This document shows, piece after piece, positions 10,838-61,910 of a DNA stretch of 64,000 nucleotides. Under the pieces are notes generated by a model, which saw nothing but the letters and a program-made list of their open reading frames with translations, was not told where the DNA came from and made no database searches. Source of the DNA: Pseudobutyrivibrio ruminis AD2017 (lineage in GTDB: Bacteria; Bacillota; Clostridia; Lachnospirales; Lachnospiraceae); NCBI RefSeq assembly GCF_000424305.1, contig NZ_AUJQ01000003.1, positions 1 to 64,000 of the forward strand, read 5' to 3'. Within the stretch, counting starts at the first letter, position 1. The number at the start of each line of letters is the position of its first letter. The position numbers and the translations under genes are program-made.

Positions 10838-10876
10838 GGGGCACTTATGTAGCACATAGGTGGCCTCATTTTTTTA
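10838..10876 (+). terminator. Hairpin with T-run upstream of palindrome A
   Basis: The segments 10838-10850 and 10854-10865 pair around an AGC loop with a few mismatches, followed by seven T at 10869-10875. It is a second terminator-like structure between the regulator gene and palindrome A. It suggests A is not simply read through from upstream. Confidence 0.5.
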
Positions 10877-10880
10877 TGTC

Positions 10881-11438
10881 CTCCCAGGCCCCACTACTGC
10901 ACAGCCCTCCATGGTAATATCATTTGAGCAGATTCGTGATTATCTTAATGTGTGTTATCTTGCTTATGTAGGTGTACTTACATGGCTTTTACAATTCGAA
11001 GGTAATGTGTGTAGGGAGCGGACATAATTGTAGACTGAGAGACATGAGGATGAAGGGTGTAGGCCCTCCCCTATTTGTCACTCCACTCGCTAAGTAAAAT
11101 TAAAAAAGTGAGTTTCTCATATATAGGCACCGTGCTCTATGCAACATCGTGTTGCTTTCGCACTTGAACCGCCATCCTAGCGGTTCATGCCAATATATGT
11201 GAAACTCACTTTTTATTTTACTAAGCTCGTTCCAAGGCAAACAGGGGAGGGCCTACACCCTTCATCCTCATGCCACTATACTTTCGTTTTATGTCCGCTC
11301 CCTACACACCTTACCGACAGAATTGTAAAACCTTGTAAGAACATCTACTAATAGATAAGCAAGATAACACACATTTAGATAAACTAGAATCTGCGATTGT
11401 ATTACCATGGAGGGCTGTGCAGTAGTGGGGCCTGGGAG
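10881..11438 (+). repeat. Giant palindromic element A (558 bp) with Y-shaped tip
   Basis: The 830-bp gap between the regulator and the exonuclease gene is mostly one long inverted repeat. Perfect helices include the outer 38 bp (10881-10918 with 11401-11438), a middle 30 bp (11043-11072 with 11243-11272) and an inner 14 bp (11103-11116 with 11201-11214). Partly matched stretches lie between them. The tip (11126-11191) splits into two hairpins, 11132-11163 and 11166-11186. Copy C at 61.5 kb is nearly identical and copy B at 20 kb is structurally equivalent. It is either a large rod-like noncoding RNA or a DNA hairpin element. No protein is conserved through it. The strand given is the one shared with copy C. 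Confidence 0.8.
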
Positions 11439-11482
11439 CAGAAATAGTAATGAAAGAAGCCCCCTCTACATGGAGGTTGTTA

Positions 11483-11511: not shown

Positions 11512-11540
11512 GTACGTAGTTTTTACGGGGGATAATGCGA

Positions 11541-12623
11541 ATGAAGATTATTCACTGTGCAGACCTGCACTTAGATTCCAAAATGGAAAGTAATTTAGAT
11601 AAAGAGCAAGCCTCACTCAGACGTATTGAGTTGGTGGAGACCTACGAGCGTATGGTGGAATTCGCCAAGAAAAATGATGTGAGGGCTATATTGATAGCTG
11701 GTGATTTGTTCGACAAGACACATATCCGTAAGGATATTAAAAAGCGTGTTGTGGAGCAGATTATTGGTGCACCGGAGATTGATTTTTATTATCTCAAGGG
11801 TAATCATGATAGATGCGACTTTATGGAAGAAGGTATAGATGAAATACCTTCTAATTTTCATATGTTCAATTCAGAAGGCTGGACCAGTTATGAATGTGAG
11901 GATGTGGTAATCACTGGTATGGAGATTAACTCATCTAATATCTCTACTATGGCACAGCGTTTGGTTTTAGATTCGGCTGCCACTAATATCGTTATGCTTC
12001 ATGGTCAGCAGTCTGATTATGATGGCAAGGGCGGGGCAGAGATTATCAATACACAGGCTCTTAAGGGCAAATTTATTGATTACCTGGCTTTAGGTCATGT
12101 TCATAAGTTTATCTTTGAGGCACTGGATGATAGAGGCGTTTACTGCTATCCAGGTTGCCTGGAGGGACGTGGTTTTGATGAAACAGGTGATAAGGGTTTT
12201 GTTCTCATGGAGATAGAGGATGGAAAAATAACATCTGAATTCATTCCATTTGCTCTTAGACGTCTGCATGAAATAAATGTAGAGGTTACTGCAGATATGG
12301 ATTTGCAGGCTGTTGCATCAAAGGCTAGAGAGCAGCTTCTGGATGTAGATGATCAGGATCTTGTTAAGTTTGTGCTTACAGGTGAGCGTGAATTGGATGA
12401 TGAACTGGATATCATTCGTTTTGTGCGCTTATTTGAAAATAAATATTTCTTCGTAAAATGCTACGACAGAACCAAGACTTTAGTAGATTACGATAGTTTC
12501 AAATACGATAAAAGTCTTAAGGGCGAATTTGTTAGACTTGTTCAGTCTCAGGATATGGATGAGGATGAAAAGGCCAAAATTATCGAAATTGGTATTAGAG
12601 CCATAATGGGGGAGGAATTATAA
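11541..12623 (+). CDS. Mre11/SbcD-like DNA repair exonuclease (YhaO type)
   Basis: This is a calcineurin-like metallophosphoesterase of the SbcD/Mre11 group. Metal-binding motifs appear in order: HCADLHLDS near the N-terminus, AGDLFD (about residue 56), KGNHDR (about 92), MLHGQQSD and ALGHVHK (about 182). Such nucleases act with an SMC-like ATPase at DNA ends and hairpins. The next gene encodes that ATPase with no gap. Two in-frame ATGs exist, 11535 and 11541; the second is better spaced from the GGGGGA ribosome-binding site and gives the usual MKIIHCADLH start. Palindrome A lies just upstream, which is notable because SbcCD enzymes cut hairpins at long palindromes. Confidence 0.88.
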   Translation: MKIIHCADLHLDSKMESNLDKEQASLRRIELVETYERMVEFAKKNDVRAILIAGDLFDKTHIRKDIKKRVVEQIIGAPEIDFYYLKGNHDRCDFMEEGIDEIPSNFHMFNSEGWTSYECEDVVITGMEINSSNISTMAQRLVLDSAATNIVMLHGQQSDYDGKGGAEIINTQALKGKFIDYLALGHVHKFIFEALDDRGVYCYPGCLEGRGFDETGDKGFVLMEIEDGKITSEFIPFALRRLHEINVEVTADMDLQAVASKAREQLLDVDDQDLVKFVLTGERELDDELDIIRFVRLFENKYFFVKCYDRTKTLVDYDSFKYDKSLKGEFVRLVQSQDMDEDEKAKIIEIGIRAIMGEEL

Positions 12624-15296
12624 ATGAAACTTATTTCGTGTTATATTGCCCATTTTGGCAAGATTACAGAATTTAAATATGATTTTAACGATGGTTTTAA
12701 CTCAATCCTTCAGGAGAATGGTTGGGGTAAAACTACATTTTCGGTGTTTATCAAGGCTATGTTTTATGGCCTGGAATATTCCCCAAATACAAAGAAAAAG
12801 CTTCTAGAGCGTAATCATTATTTGCCATGGGACGGAAGCCTTTGTGGCGGTAATATCGTGTTCAGCACTAAGAACAGACAGTATCGTATCGAGCGTACCT
12901 TTGGTAGAACAGATAAGGATGATACTTTTGTGCTTTACGATAACGAAACAGGTCTTGTTAGCAACGATTACTCAGAGGACATTGGTGAAGAGCTGTTTTT
13001 GGTAGATAGAGATTCCTTTGAAAAGAGTGTGTATATTCCACAGCTTTCCCTTGGAACAGCTATGACAGATTCACTGAATGCTAAGATGGGAAATCTTACA
13101 TCAGCCAGGGACGATATCAATAACTTTGATACAGCTCTTAAAAGTGTTAAGGATGCTAGGGTGGAATACACCCGCAACAGTAAGATAAACCCAGGTAAGT
13201 TATTTGGCACTAGGCAGGAAATTAATAAATGCAAGGAAGAGTTTGAAAAGCTTCCAGCCATTGAAGAGAGCGTTGAGGCCATGAGCTGCCTTATCGAAGA
13301 AAAGCAGCAGAACCTGGATAATCTTAACAATGAAAAGGCAAAGCTTGCAGAAAGCATCCAGCTTCAGAGTAAAAAGGAGCAGGAGCTTGGCGCCTATAAG
13401 ATTCACAAGGAAAATCTTATGGCCGAGGAGCAAAAGATATCAGACCTTGATAACTTCTTTGCAGCAGGCATTCCTACAGATGATGAGATAATCATGCTAG
13501 AACAGACCGAACGTGATTTGGCTGTTCACGAAAGAGCATTTAAGGCCTTAAATGAAGACCTTGATAGAGAAGGAAATGTTTTTGATAAGCCATTTATGAA
13601 CAGAATCCCAGATGACACAGAGTTTGCCATGTGGAACAAAATGGCTGCAAATCTTTCTGAGCTTAGAGCCAAGGCAGAACATTCAAAGCTATCAGAGGAA
13701 TCATCTAAACAGCTTACAGAGCTTAAATTCTTCTTTGATAAGCTGGTGCCTACAGATGAGCAACTGGCTCACATAGAACGTCAGACAACCCAGATCACAG
13801 GCCTTCAGGCACGTATTAGCCAAAGCAACGAAAGACTTATCACCTTAAGGGCAGAGCAGGAGGCCAACGAAAAGGTAAGCCGAAACAATACCGTTACGGT
13901 TTGGCACATACTTGGCACTATCCTCCTTGTTATATTTATCCTTTCAGGCGTTGTGTTTAGCAATTACATGGCAGATATTGTTGGAAGGATTGTTGAAATT
14001 GTCAGCGTGGTGGCTATCATTGCTGATGTGATATTCCTGATAATTAGTGGACGACGTTCTCACAAGAATAAGCTTAAGCAGGCTGAAGAATATGCAGACA
14101 GAGTTGAAGAGGAAGAGGATGCTCTTGAACTTAGCAATCTTGAGCTTAGAGAATTAGAGGAAGAATGCGAGGACTTCTTATCACATTTCCTCCTTACAAG
14201 AGCTTCAACCATGCAGGAAAATGTTTACGAAATCAGACGTAAGCTTGACCAATATAGACATCTTTTGGACGAGGAAAACTCACGCCATCAGGAGGCAGAG
14301 GGAACACTTGATGAGCTGGCTGATTTACAGCTTGAGCTTTACACAAAGATTCAGCCATTTGCCAGCTGCTATGGAATCAATCTGTACGATATGGGCGGTG
14401 AGTATGAATTCCTGTCACAACTTAAAAAGGATGCCGATAAATACGCAAAGCACCTAGAAGCCTTAGAGGAAATGGCCAGCCATGAGAATTCAATCAGAAC
14501 CATGACTGCCGATATCGAAAAAATCATCAAAAGATATCCTGTGGATGAGAGCTTGCGCCGTGCCGAGGCTATCCAAAGCATCGGTCTTAAAAAGCGTGAA
14601 TACGAGGCAATAAAGGCTCGTATTGATGAACTTAAGGACGCTATAACAAAGTTTGAAGCAGAATTCGATGTAAACGAAGAGGTTCAATCTGTTGATGATT
14701 TGCAGCAGAAGCAGTCAGAACTGGATGAACAGATTATGGAGCTTAATAAGCAGTTGATTCAGGAGAAGGAGAACCTATCCCAGGCTCTAGAAGAGGTAGA
14801 ACGATTAAGCGATATTTCAGACCAGATAGAGCGTCTTGAAGTAAAGGAAAAGGAATACAAAAAGGAGGCAGATATCTTAGGCAAGACAGAGGATTTCCTT
14901 AATCGTGCCAGAGAAAGCTTCCAGTCCAAATACATGCAGCCACTTCAGAATGGCTTGCACAAATACTTAAGCCTTATTGATGGTCCAGAAGGAACAAAAT
15001 CTGGCTACGCCATCGACGACTTCGAGCTTGATATGGACCTTAACATCAAGCTTACCTATTCAGGCAGCACCAAGGGCGCTGAATATCTATCCCAAGGATA
15101 TCAGGATTTAGTAGCACTTTGCTCACGTCTTGCCTTAGTGGACGTGCTATACCCAGAGGAAAAGCCAATCCTTATTTTGGATGACCCATTTACAAACCTG
15201 GATGACAAAAAAATAAAGGAGTCGTTAAAACTCCTTCATACTATAGCCGACGAACGCCAGACAGTGTATTTCACATGTCATGATAGTAGGTTATAA
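12624..15296 (+). CDS. SbcC/Rad50-like ATPase with central membrane segment (YhaN type)
   Basis: The 890-aa protein has an N-terminal ATP-binding half with Walker A variant ENGWGKTTF (about residues 32-40), long coiled coils (about 190-420 and 480-790), and a C-terminal half with signature LSQGYQDL and Walker B ILILDDPF. Two hydrophobic helices interrupt the coiled coil near residues 428-475, as in Bacillus YhaN. The complex may therefore be membrane-tethered. It should drive the YhaO-like nuclease encoded immediately upstream; the ATG follows that gene's stop codon directly. Its last codons overlap the convergent small gene at 15291. Confidence 0.87.
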   Translation: MKLISCYIAHFGKITEFKYDFNDGFNSILQENGWGKTTFSVFIKAMFYGLEYSPNTKKKLLERNHYLPWDGSLCGGNIVFSTKNRQYRIERTFGRTDKDDTFVLYDNETGLVSNDYSEDIGEELFLVDRDSFEKSVYIPQLSLGTAMTDSLNAKMGNLTSARDDINNFDTALKSVKDARVEYTRNSKINPGKLFGTRQEINKCKEEFEKLPAIEESVEAMSCLIEEKQQNLDNLNNEKAKLAESIQLQSKKEQELGAYKIHKENLMAEEQKISDLDNFFAAGIPTDDEIIMLEQTERDLAVHERAFKALNEDLDREGNVFDKPFMNRIPDDTEFAMWNKMAANLSELRAKAEHSKLSEESSKQLTELKFFFDKLVPTDEQLAHIERQTTQITGLQARISQSNERLITLRAEQEANEKVSRNNTVTVWHILGTILLVIFILSGVVFSNYMADIVGRIVEIVSVVAIIADVIFLIISGRRSHKNKLKQAEEYADRVEEEEDALELSNLELRELEEECEDFLSHFLLTRASTMQENVYEIRRKLDQYRHLLDEENSRHQEAEGTLDELADLQLELYTKIQPFASCYGINLYDMGGEYEFLSQLKKDADKYAKHLEALEEMASHENSIRTMTADIEKIIKRYPVDESLRRAEAIQSIGLKKREYEAIKARIDELKDAITKFEAEFDVNEEVQSVDDLQQKQSELDEQIMELNKQLIQEKENLSQALEEVERLSDISDQIERLEVKEKEYKKEADILGKTEDFLNRARESFQSKYMQPLQNGLHKYLSLIDGPEGTKSGYAIDDFELDMDLNIKLTYSGSTKGAEYLSQGYQDLVALCSRLALVDVLYPEEKPILILDDPFTNLDDKKIKESLKLLHTIADERQTVYFTCHDSRL

Positions 15297-19370: not shown

Positions 19371-19964
19371 ATGAATGTTAATGAAATAGAGCTTTCCAAG
19401 GTTGATGGAATATCACTTATGGATGGCTTGCAATATTGTGGAAGTCTTAGGGATTTCGAAAAATTCCTTGAATCCTTTTATGATGATATCGAGGACAATG
19501 CAACTACAATAGAAGATGCATACCAAAATAAAAATATAGAGCTTTTTACTATAAAGGTTCACGCACTGAAAACCTCAGCAAGGATGATAGGTGCTAAGGA
19601 GCTTTCTGAAGAAGCTTATTTACTTGAGTCGGCTGGCAAATCAGCTAATATGCCATACATAGATGCTAATGTTGATAGCTTCCTTTCATTATACAGAAGC
19701 TACATTAGCAGGCTTGATAGCTACATGTCAGAGAAACGTCGAATTAAAGCAATAAAAAAGCCCATCACAAAGGATGAGCTAGAAGACGCATATAATGCTC
19801 TTAGAGAAGTGTGTCCTTCCAGGGATTATAGTGCTGTTGAAATGATTCTAGAAGAACTTAGCACATATCAGCTGCCAGATGAGGATCAAAAACAAATGGC
19901 ACTTTTCAAGACACATTTTCATAAATTAGAGTGGGAGGAAATGGAACAGACTCTTATGGGATAG
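19371..19964 (+). CDS. Orphan Hpt (histidine phosphotransfer) protein
   Basis: The 197-aa protein has a four-helix Hpt bundle in residues 1-110. The putative phospho-histidine is in KVHALKTSARMIGA (about residue 65). An acidic, helical C-terminal tail (about 125-197) has no recognised domain. Hpt proteins relay phosphate between receiver domains. The C-terminal Hpt of the kinase at 7490 shares the same motif layout, so this may serve the output-less regulator at 9941 or another hybrid kinase. The stop codon lies 4 bp before the outer arm of palindrome B. Confidence 0.8.
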   Translation: MNVNEIELSKVDGISLMDGLQYCGSLRDFEKFLESFYDDIEDNATTIEDAYQNKNIELFTIKVHALKTSARMIGAKELSEEAYLLESAGKSANMPYIDANVDSFLSLYRSYISRLDSYMSEKRRIKAIKKPITKDELEDAYNALREVCPSRDYSAVEMILEELSTYQLPDEDQKQMALFKTHFHKLEWEEMEQTLMG

Positions 19965-19967
19965 GTT

Positions 19968-20605
19968 GGCTACTATTCAATCCGTCTATATTCATGATAG
20001 GAACATGACCCGCCCATAGGCCCCACACCCTCACACAGGGGAATACAATCACAGATTTTAGATTATCTAAATGTAAAATCTTGCATCTTTATTCGTAGGT
20101 GTTCTTACAAAGTTTTACAATTCTGTCGGTAAAGTATGCTGAGGGCGGACATATACTAAAATTAAAGAGCATGTGTATTAGCAGGATTAGCCCCTATTAC
20201 TTTTTGCTTTGGAGTGAGCTTAGAAAAATAAAAAGCAGGTTTTGAATATATAGGTATGCGCCGCTAGGACGGCGGCGCAAGTGGTCACTTGAGACACGAT
20301 GTCGAATGTGCCACGGTGGCTATATATTCAAAACCTGCTTTTTTAATTTTTATTAGCGAATGTAATAGCAAAAAAGTAATAGGGGCTAATCCTGCTAATG
20401 CACATGCTTGTAAAACTACAAATATGTCCGCTCTCAGCACACATTACCTTCGAATTGTAAAAGCTTAGTAAGTACACCTACAGATGCAAGATTACTCACA
20501 TTAAGATAATCTACAAATCTGCTCAAATGATATTCCCCTGTGTGAGGGTGTGGGGCCTATGGCCGGGCCATGCAAACACAGTTTAGGGCGGATTGAATAG
20601 TAGCC
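19968..20605 (-). repeat. Giant palindromic element B (638 bp), reverse orientation to A and C
   Basis: This fills the whole gap between two convergent genes. Helices: a perfect outermost 17 bp (19968-19984 with 20589-20605), a perfect 32 bp (20014-20045 with 20531-20562), 37 bp with one G-T pair (20169-20205 with 20371-20407) and a perfect inner 23 bp (20230-20252 with 20321-20343). The tip carries two hairpins, 20258-20278 and 20281-20314. Read on the minus strand, parts of the arms and the tip match A and C, while whole helices differ in sequence yet remain paired. No ORF is maintained. Confidence 0.8.
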
Positions 20606-20609
20606 TCGC

Positions 20610-21341
20610 TTAGATGTAGCCTCCGTCCACGCCAATTATCTGCCCTGTCATATATGATGGGGCTTTTATTATGGAAAGAGCAGTCCCAGCAATTTCTTCT
20701 GGGGTGCAGAAGCGGCCAGCTGGGATTTCGTCGGAGAGCTCTTGCTTTTCTTCTGCTGATAGCATTCCGTTCATGTCAGTGTCAACCACACCGCAGGCAA
20801 TGGCGTTTACTGCTATGCCGCTTAGTGCAAGCTCCTTACCTAATGCTTTAGTGAAGGAATTGACTCCACCCTTTGCAGCAGAATAAGCCACCTCGCAGCT
20901 GGCTCCAACAGTGCCCCACATGGAGCTAATGTTGATTATATTGCCAGATTTAGCATGAACCATGGCAGGAACGACAGCTTTAGCAGTGTAGAATAAAGGA
21001 GACAGGTTAGTGCCAATCATTTCATCCCACTCATCTAAGGACATATCTGTAAGCAGACCAATATGTGCGATGCCTGCATTATTAATAAGAACATCCACCT
21101 GCCCCAGCTTTTCGATTGCATCCTCGCATGCAGGAATAGTGAAGCCGCTGTCAGCAATGTCGCCGGCATAGGTGTAAACTTCTATTTTGTAATCCTTGCG
21201 TAGTGTTGCTGCAAAGTCGTTAAGCATATCTATATTGTTGTGACAAAACAAAGCAAGATGGTAGCCTTCTTTGGCAAGGGCAGCCGCGCAGGCCTTACCT
21301 ATTCCTCTGCTTGCTCCGGTAATAATTGCAGTTTTTTTCAT
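20610..21341 (-). CDS. Short-chain dehydrogenase/reductase (FabG-like)
   Basis: This is an NAD(P)-dependent Rossmann enzyme of about 243 aa. The cofactor motif TGASRGIG is at residues 8-15, NNAG near 88, the catalytic S about 140 and YSAAK about 153-157, and the C-terminal end IGVDGGYI is typical of FabG/3-oxoacyl-ACP reductases. It stands alone without other fatty-acid genes, so the substrate is uncertain. The ATG at 21341 follows AGGAAGG; upstream in-frame starts precede the ribosome-binding site. The stop codon is 4 bp from the outer arm of palindrome B, which could also act as its 3' structure. Confidence 0.9.
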   Translation of the reverse strand: MKKTAIITGASRGIGKACAAALAKEGYHLALFCHNNIDMLNDFAATLRKDYKIEVYTYAGDIADSGFTIPACEDAIEKLGQVDVLINNAGIAHIGLLTDMSLDEWDEMIGTNLSPLFYTAKAVVPAMVHAKSGNIINISSMWGTVGASCEVAYSAAKGGVNSFTKALGKELALSGIAVNAIACGVVDTDMNGMLSAEEKQELSDEIPAGRFCTPEEIAGTALSIIKAPSYMTGQIIGVDGGYI

Positions 21342-21454
21342 TTTCTGTACCTTCCTTTTGATAGTTATTATATCACATCTTTTTTCATTCCTCAGGAATA
21401 GACCCATTGTATACACAATTAATAATCTAGTAATAAAGAATTCAGATAAAAGCC

Positions 21455-39167: not shown

Positions 39168-39408
39168 TGGCAACACCTCCTTTATGGGGGTGATACAGTC
39201 TCGTTCAAAATGATACGAGCATGCCGTGCGGGTTCTACTATTTTAAAACTTAGAAATTAAAGGGTATAGTTTCTTTCGAATACCATCCGCTGCTCAATAT
39301 ACCATTTGTGTGGAGTAATGTAAATATATATGGTGTTCAAAAATTTTTGTATACAGAATTATACAATTATGAAACTGCTATAGAGAGTTTCCTTAGTAGA
39401 AATGGGGA

Positions 39409-39772
39409 CTTTACCACTAGCAGAGGCTGTTACTGGCTTTTTCAGTGGTAAAGAGTAATTTATTTCTATTAGCACTACTACCTACATAGGAAAAATAGGC
39501 ATAGATAGTAGTGTTTTTTGACATGGCTACTACCTGTGTAAGATAATTAATTACAGATAGTAGTCAATTTTAATGAGATTACTATCTGTGAAGAAAAAGA
39601 GAATATAGATAGTAAAGAATCTGCAATCTATTACTATCTGCGAAGAAAAATAGCTCACGGATAGTAAAGCTATGGATGTTGACTACTATCTGAAGGCAAA
39701 AACACATCGTAGGTAGTAAACAAAATGAGAATGACTACTGCCTAGATAGAAAAAAGTATCGCAGATAGTAGT
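39409..39772. repeat. Array of seven inverted-repeat units, period 52 bp in six of them
   Basis: The 780-bp gap between two divergent genes holds this array. Six units of 37-39 bp start at 39474, 39527, 39578, 39630, 39682 and 39734, spaced 51-53 bp. Each has the form ACTACTATCTG, about 18 variable A-rich bases, CAGATAGTAGT, with minor differences. A seventh, related only in shape, lies at 39409-39453 with stem CTTTACCACT/AGTGGTAAAG. The 52-bp period is not a multiple of three, and no ORF is present. The array could be protein-binding sites or a row of RNA hairpins. Confidence 0.8.
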
Positions 39773-48732: not shown

Positions 48733-49098
48733 GTTAAGTTTATTCTGGCTTTTCCCATTTCCACTTAAAAAATGGAAATGGGGTTAAGTGTGAGAAAGAA
48801 AAAAATTTTTTCACTTAACTATACATAAATATTTTTAGGTAAAGTTAAGTTTATTAGAGAATTCCAATTTCACACTTAAAAACCTGTTAAGTGAGAAATA
48901 GATTTCAATTATCCACACTTAACTATTCCCAAATTAGGCTATAAAAAGCACTAAAAAGTTAAGTGAAAAATTTTTTCTGCTGAGAAAACTTAACAGGGTT
49001 TTGTGATTTTAAGTGAAAAAATAAAAATCTCATTTTCACTTAACTTTGAGCGAGTTTTTTGTTAAGTGAAAAATCCAATTCATAGCTGGTCACTTAAG
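48733..49098. repeat. Array of seven GTTAAGTG/CACTTAAC inverted-repeat units
   Basis: The 445-bp gap between two exporter permease genes is filled by seven units of about 37-38 bp, starting at about 48733, 48783, 48844, 48886, 48958, 49007 and 49061. Each has GTTAAGTG (or GTTAAGTT) on the left and CACTTAAC (or a close variant) on the right, with about 20 AT-rich bases between. Spacing varies from 42 to 72 bp. A 9-bp hairpin, CCCATTTCC/GGAAATGGG (48754-48782), overlaps the first two. No coding sequence is present. Confidence 0.8.
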
Positions 49099-61495: not shown

Positions 61496-61910
61496 ATATC
61501 ATTTGAGCAGATTCGTGATTATCTTAATGTGTGTTATCTTGCTTATGTAGGTGTACTTACATGGCTTTTACAATTCGAAGGTAAGGTGTGTAGGGAGCGG
61601 ACATAATTGTAGGTTGAGAGGCATGAGGATGAAGGGGGTAGGCCCTCCCCTATTTGCCACTCCACTCGCTAAGTAAAATTAAAAAAGTGAGTTTCTCATA
61701 TATAGGCACCGTGCTCTATGCAACATCGTGTTGCTTTCGCACTTGAACCGCCATCCTAGCGGTTCATGCCAATATATGTGAAACTCACTTTTTATTTTAC
61801 TAAGCTCGTTCCAAGGCAACTGGGGAAGGGCCTACACCCTGAATCCACATGCCAATACACTTTTGTATTATGTCCGTCCTCTACACACCTTACCGACAGA
61901 ATATCACTGG
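61496..61910 (+). repeat. Giant palindromic element C, right arm truncated
   Basis: Positions 61496-61900 align to 10917-11321 of element A with no length change and about twenty substitutions by eye, most of them in the right arm. The tip (61705-61770) with its two hairpins, 61711-61742 and 61745-61765, is identical to A. The outer right arm is missing: sequence after 61901 no longer matches. A short CCTC/GAGG outer pairing remains. Several helix positions are now mismatched. C therefore looks like a decaying copy. It occupies most of the 597-bp gap before the Wzt-like gene. Confidence 0.8.

Follow-up and report, generated by a model that had tools for sequence, protein, structure and literature searches.

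The analysed window comprises 64,000 nucleotides of the Pseudobutyrivibrio ruminis AD2017 genome (contig NZ_AUJQ01000003.1). Within it, element B is situated between two convergent genes, an Hpt-domain gene (19371-19964, + strand) and a YmfI-like reductase gene (20610-21416, - strand). Element B forms one imperfect hairpin from end to end, about 640 bases long, with the outermost paired bases at 19968 and 20605. Folded as single-stranded DNA it reached -225.2 kcal/mol, against a mean of -67.5 kcal/mol (sd 4.85) for 20 shuffled sequences, none of which was as stable as B (z -32.5). The RNA fold of B with a few flanking bases gave -373.5 kcal/mol for the + strand and -371.2 kcal/mol for the - strand. 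Helices of at least 12 bp measure, from outer to inner, 19, 32, 12, 18, 39 and 24 bp, and the following features were assigned:

19968-20605, + strand (tip on the + strand): element B, whole hairpin insertion; outermost pair 19968/20605, empty site in two relatives, fold z -32.5
19960-19967, no strand: probable decayed target-site copy, left; GATAGGTT, where genome G023 has TCTAGCTT at the empty site, 5 of 8 bases matching
20606-20613, no strand: probable decayed target-site copy, right
19968-19986, + strand: left arm of the outer helix; pairs with 20587-20605 over 19 bp, including one G-T pair; worn terminal inverted repeat (TIR; GGCTACTATTCA)
20587-20605, + strand: outer helix, right arm
20014-20045, + strand: 32-bp perfect helix, left side; pairs with 20531-20562
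20531-20562, + strand: 32-bp perfect helix, right side
20077-20088, + strand: 12-bp helix, left side; pairs with 20482-20493
20482-20493, + strand: 12-bp helix, right side
20137-20154, + strand: 18-bp helix, left side; pairs with 20422-20439, one G-T pair
20422-20439, + strand: 18-bp helix, right side
20167-20205, + strand: middle helix, left side; 39 bp, two G-T pairs
20371-20409, + strand: middle helix, right side
20206-20229, + strand: left side of the conserved internal loop next to the tip; begins GCTTTGGAGTGAGCTTAG and holds a near-invariant T.T mismatch
20344-20370, + strand: right side of the conserved internal loop next to the tip; contains TTAGCGAATG
20230-20253, + strand: inner helix, left side; 24 bp, perfect
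20320-20343, + strand: inner helix, right side
20208-20367, + strand: match to the TwoAYGGAY motif (RF01731), 60.6 bits, gathering score 43
20258-20278, + strand: hairpin 1 of the tip; its loop has GGA (TAGGA)
20282-20316, + strand: tip hairpin 2, approximate limits; ACACGATGT, without GGA in B

The helix lengths given in the initial annotation, 37 bp with one G-T pair for the middle helix and 23 bp for the perfect inner helix, were thus nearly right. Two further copies are located in the window:

10866-11453, - strand: element A; strictly paired core 10881-11438, tip 11078-11236 on the - strand
61496-61902, - strand: element C; shares 95% identity with part of A, without the outer right arm, tip 61657-61815

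An Rfam search of the window placed the TwoAYGGAY matches in the tips of A and C on the - strand and that of B on the + strand, and the alignment of B to A on opposite strands could be confirmed, B on the + strand matching A on the - strand. One further copy in the genome, element D (C2:213835-213992), also has a tip above the RF01731 gathering cut-off. These four matches are the ones found in the genome, and all are situated on one 412-kb contig of the 2.9-Mb genome. In the same orientation A and B showed 77.6% identity over 549 aligned bases, and the helices of A (39, 21, 21, 37 and 14 bp) follow the order of those in B. The fold of B is therefore kept in A, as had been proposed; the accompanying statement of almost no shared sequence in the middle and inner helices is overstated, since many identical bases align there, although these helices are, as judged by eye, the most diverged parts of the alignment. 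Just downstream of hairpin A (window 11535-15296) genes for an SbcD/Mre11-like nuclease and a Rad50/SMC-like ATPase were observed, both assigned through NCBIfam matches below the curated cut-offs. Enzymes of this class cut palindromes.

The junction occupied by B is empty in two other Pseudobutyrivibrio genomes, G024 and G023, which identifies B as an insertion. The site is occupied in G013 and G010, where the relatives of B are 92.6 and 91.2% identical to it over 638 and 557 aligned bases, respectively. The left target-site copy includes the stop codon of the + strand gene. The site of A is empty in G024 as well, and the flanks in that genome are closer to those of A than the flanks in G023 are, yet A is missing. 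Element A itself is 98.4% identical between G000 and G023, with 56.5 and 72.2% at the third codon positions of the flanking genes. Some elements are thus more conserved than the neighbouring third codon positions, which is not predicted by free drift of the arms. RF01731 is present in 27 of the 29 Pseudobutyrivibrio genomes, with up to 49 matches per genome; of 397 Lachnospiraceae genomes sampled from the wider family, 65 have it. Open frames were found on either side of 98 elements; roughly called by the longest frame, these flanking frames were convergent in 26 cases, divergent in 7 and co-directional in 65.

The ends of the better preserved copies were compared. Twenty-nine giant hairpins carry GTTACYATTCAC at both ends with at most one mismatch at each end. 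Their 8-bp flanks are identical at all eight positions in five elements, at seven in four (two of which, L116 and L123, represent one insertion in two genomes) and at six or fewer, with no duplication, in 20; at equal base frequencies the chance of a complete match is 1.5e-5 for each element. The TIR and the duplication of B itself are worn. In other genera, smaller hairpins that share these ends showed complete 8-bp duplications in all seven distinct paired elements of one set, and in a second set the duplication was exact in one of six and partial or offset in the others. No duplication was seen for L193, L199 and L200, three small Pseudobutyrivibrio hairpins. The 15-base end pattern occurs in 47 of the 397 family genomes, with 239 copies in G267. 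A large family of Lachnospiraceae repeats (e.g. in G267 and G140) consists of hairpins of about 80-200 bp that bear GTTACTATTCACAG at their ends and often have 8-bp duplications.

The matches listed for the 397 family genomes and the 29 genomes of the genus included no autonomous transposase that has these ends. The IS4-family element G028:C1:962293-964002 was considered as autonomous partner and rejected: it has its own ends, starting with CAATGTCATT, and inserts in hairpins and terminator-like palindromes. The candidate loci L197-L206 led to no partner either. Insertion sequences were also observed within the tips of giant hairpins, an IS110-family element in L191 (G013:C197) and IS4-family elements in L234 and L236 (G028:C1), with hairpin sequence flanking the IS on both sides in all three. 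An Rfam search of the IS-bearing loci returned no TwoAYGGAY match. Related IS4 elements occupy other palindromes, with repeats of about 10-11 bp as read by eye.

The family of B has TIRs, 8-bp target duplications, dispersed intergenic copies and empty sites in common with MITEs and other small bacterial mobile repeats. It differs from them in being long and hairpin-forming throughout, with a conserved structured tip and conserved internal loops, and in having arms that differ between copies and still pair. Based on the empty sites, the dispersed copies, and the TIRs and 8-bp duplications of the best-preserved copies, the family looks like a MITE-type non-autonomous DNA transposon, which may be moved by a putative transposase acting in trans. 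A viral, parvovirus-like form of the hairpin-primed replication that had been offered as the setting for copying between the arms is not supported: the neighbours of B are the Hpt-domain and reductase genes, no match to B was found in phage or plasmid collections, and TIRs and duplications are present instead.

For the analysis of the arms 134 elements were traced, of which 102 passed the length and score limits; 101 were used, L063 being left out as a member of another genus. They are 532-803 bases long (median 633) and contain 223-359 paired positions each. All were oriented by the conserved loop, and this orientation agrees with the Rfam strand in 99 of the 99 elements listed there (two were not listed). 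Changes were counted in 50 disjoint pairs of nearest elements (9774 paired positions), the base pairs being defined by aligning the arms and the neutral expectation for double changes being simple independence of the arms. In this set 385 both-sided changes from one Watson-Crick pair to another were found against 70.9 expected, so that the large-scale covariation, with both sides changed together, is real. These comprise 197 transitions and 188 transversions; 67 more both-sided changes were not Watson-Crick in both members. The one-sided changes from Watson-Crick pairs gave 114 G-U, 102 A-C and 191 transversion mismatches. RNA-type pairing of the Rfam strand, in which G-U is tolerated and A-C is not, is thus not seen in the arms.

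Mismatches within single elements were also counted, and the isolated arm mismatches amounted to 241 G-U, 270 A-C and 826 others. Among tip-end pairs spanning less than 165 bases, 17 G-U, 31 A-C and 318 other isolated mismatches were present, and in other genera (26 of 30 loci, four short ones left out) 30 G-U and 30 A-C. A strand flip exchanges the G-U and A-C counts; without a common strand setting they were likewise near equal (100 and 101). The double changes are clustered, 63 being adjacent against 24.6 after shuffling, and 57 of 296 indels are matched by one of equal length at the facing position, where shifted controls gave 17.25.

The control was RNase P RNA, compared in 13 pairs; its 27 sequences come from these 29 genomes, and every one scores above the RF00010 cut-off. 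With the Rfam structure of RF00010, the one-sided changes were 38 G-U, 2 A-C and 3 transversions, and 53 double changes (41 transitions, 12 transversions) were counted against 7.4 expected. As an RNAalifold structure favours G-U pairs, both structures were used, with the same outcome: the RNAalifold structure gave 42 G-U, 1 A-C and 2 transversions, and 49 double changes (39 transitions, 10 transversions) against 6.9 expected. An excess of double changes is therefore shared by RNase P and by itself does not separate copying from selection, whereas the spectrum of changes does. Hairpins and RNase P differed in Fisher tests of G-U against A-C (p 9.4e-8) and of transitions against transversions among double changes (p 3.5e-4). 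The latter ratio separates the two less strongly than the one-sided spectrum and was discarded as a sole test. Near RNase P RNA genes, a TwoAYGGAY match (L165, 1071-1222) and a Clostridiales-1 sRNA match (L184, 1847-2007) were observed.

Orthologous loci were also considered. Among 385 close pairs 12 had orthologous flanks, and the ten disjoint ones were counted. These showed 52 double changes (25 transitions, 27 transversions) against 7.3 expected, with one-sided changes of 26 G-U, 26 A-C and 41 transversions. Between B and its relative in G013, 7 Watson-Crick double and 16 one-sided changes were found at 243 paired positions. In three of the 12 orthologous pairs (L138/L147, L009/L010 and L001/L136) the element is reversed relative to its flanks, and in the G010 relative of B consecutive changes such as A.A to T.T are consistent with a turned inner segment.

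Judged from the sequences compared, copying from arm to arm by template switching fits the arm data best. We infer this mechanism from the change spectrum: unpaired intermediates of every kind are tolerated and pairing nevertheless returns, which points to copying and not to stepwise selection on an RNA. The initial annotation had taken the covariation to imply that the pairing itself matters and had named arm-to-arm copying as the alternative. For the arms it is the alternative that is favoured, in view of the near equality of G-U and A-C, the transversions, the facing indels and the clustering. The striking pairing of the arms accordingly says little in favour of a selected RNA. Mutations that arise in one arm would often be copied into the other during replication or repair, through template switching between the arms, in events spanning single positions or short tracts and sometimes including indels. 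Elements may also be reversed in place by recombination between the arms, as the outcome in the three orthologous pairs suggests.

The tip seems to be kept for some function. A T.T mismatch beside the tip is present in 99 of the 101 elements, as T.T in 58 and as A.A, its view from the opposite strand, in 41, with another combination in the remaining two; G.A and A.G mismatches near it are nearly as constant. Since copying would be expected to erase mismatches of this kind, something keeps them. The loop of hairpin 1 contains GGA in all 88 unique Pseudobutyrivibrio tips; in other genera it does so in at least 21 of 26. In B the loop of hairpin 1 carries GGA (TAGGAC), and that of hairpin 2 reads ACACGATG.

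A rival reading is a large structured RNA: one strand would give a functional transcript, and the covariation would result from selection on RNA pairing over the entire stem. RF01731 is curated as an RNA, and Rfam 15 lists it with two additional covarying pairs by R-scape. Besides the GGA loops, the stem of hairpin 1 showed 13 double changes, 4 one-sided and 1 other, which are few, and among the 88 unique genus tips 20 cells with G-U and none with A-C were found in this hairpin, though all 20 are at one pair. Selection on pairing in tip hairpin 1 is thus possible. In other genera, hairpin 1 showed the reverse, with 5 A-C and 1 G-U. The tip and inner stems of the RNAalifold structure outside the tip hairpins had 18 G-U and 19 A-C in the genus and 20 of each in other genera. 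Taken with the arms, whose one-sided spectrum is far from that of RNase P and whose isolated mismatches are balanced both in the genus and beyond it, these counts make a structured RNA quite unlikely as the source of the covariation.

Selection could also act on the folded DNA of either strand, as a cruciform or as a single strand in replication or transposition, for example through recognition of the hairpin by a transposase. The attC sites of integrons are recognised as hairpins in this manner. Equal numbers of G-U and A-C could also be expected if the folded forms of both strands were selected equally, which agrees with the strand-neutral mismatch spectrum, and the near-invariant mismatches exist only in the fold. 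The IS110- and IS4-family elements in three tips point in the same direction, and some other IS elements are described to insert in REP palindromes (PMC1525189). However, the paired indels and the clustered double changes are left unexplained by such selection, and the 8-bp duplications and TIRs suggest ordinary double-strand transposition. As an explanation of the arms, selection on folded DNA is therefore regarded as quite improbable.

Most of the relatives are draft genomes, in which hairpins are hard to assemble. That the covariation is an artefact, with one arm overwritten by the other in short-read assembly or Watson-Crick columns preferred by the aligner of the arms, is very improbable even though contigs often end within such hairpins and pairs were defined by arm-to-arm alignment, because the family is present in the nearly closed assembly G028 (3 contigs, 9 matches), arm mismatches survive in the traced elements and the excess of double changes is also found between orthologous loci of separate assemblies.

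The reading preferred here, and considered rather likely, is that B is a copy of a MITE-like Pseudobutyrivibrio family whose arms pair through copying and in which selection keeps a few features of the tip. The data suggest that selection on a folded form acts at the tip and the fixed internal loops and not through covariation of the helices. What is kept is probably not the helix sequence but the tip hairpin with its GGA loop and the internal loop with the T.T mismatch. These conserved features probably represent a putative protein-binding site in folded form, for which CsrA is a published candidate: TwoAYGGAY was proposed as a CsrA-binding RNA in 2014 (PMC4333381), and csrA is present in motility loci of Roseburia and Eubacterium (PMC3720852). 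The B family resembles CsrA-binding sRNAs in having GGA in hairpin loops on variable stems, and differs from them in that its putative CsrA site is embedded in a mobile element and that loop 2 of B is without GGA. The opposite strand carries GGAY in 22 of the 26 tips of other genera, and by that count the strand preference is weak. A tentative and rather doubtful extension is that TwoAYGGAY represents the recognition tip of widespread giant-hairpin transposons with copied arms; the covariation of a curated RNA family would then be largely a product of DNA replication. In this extension a host protein, for instance CsrA, would be captured by the tip, and every insertion would add an invertible regulatory binding site.

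The TwoAYGGAY RNA motif was described by Weinberg in 2010 (PMC2864571). The tips of A, B, C and D correspond to it in scoring above the gathering cut-off and in the GGA-loop hairpin. The RF01731 model spans 168 of the approximately 640 bases; the mobile hairpins in whose tips it lies here measure about 530-800 bases. As further differences, the covariation of the arms is better explained by copying than by RNA selection, and only one of the two B loops has GGA. The RF01731 family, to which no function is assigned, can be viewed anew as part of a mobile element.

Template switching in RNA genes, where one arm templates the other and compensatory changes arise instantaneously, sometimes with inverted loops, has been described by Monttinen and Loytynoja in 2022 (PMC8794818). 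The cases presented there concern short rRNA stems and microRNAs; in the hairpins studied here 223-359 paired positions per element and hundreds of two-sided changes are involved and, unlike in those cases, unpaired intermediates of all kinds are tolerated. In the open-licence PMC literature no paper on such mobile giant hairpins with self-copied arms was found. Covariation is a major kind of evidence for functional RNA structure, and here hundreds of natural two-sided changes stand beside those of a true RNA of the same genomes. A comparison of G-U with A-C mismatches that separates copying from selection could serve as a simple check on other repeat-borne RNA families. The hairpins also offer a natural setting in which the rate of template switching between long inverted repeats of bacteria can be measured.

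Two other features of the window were observed. An Rfam match to the pan motif lies at 39193-39289 on the - strand (37 bits, cut-off 36.2 bits), with a 38-nt inverted repeat nearby (39554-39692). Positions 48733-49045 contain a cluster of AT-rich TTAAGTG...CACTTAA repeats in direct and inverted orientation.
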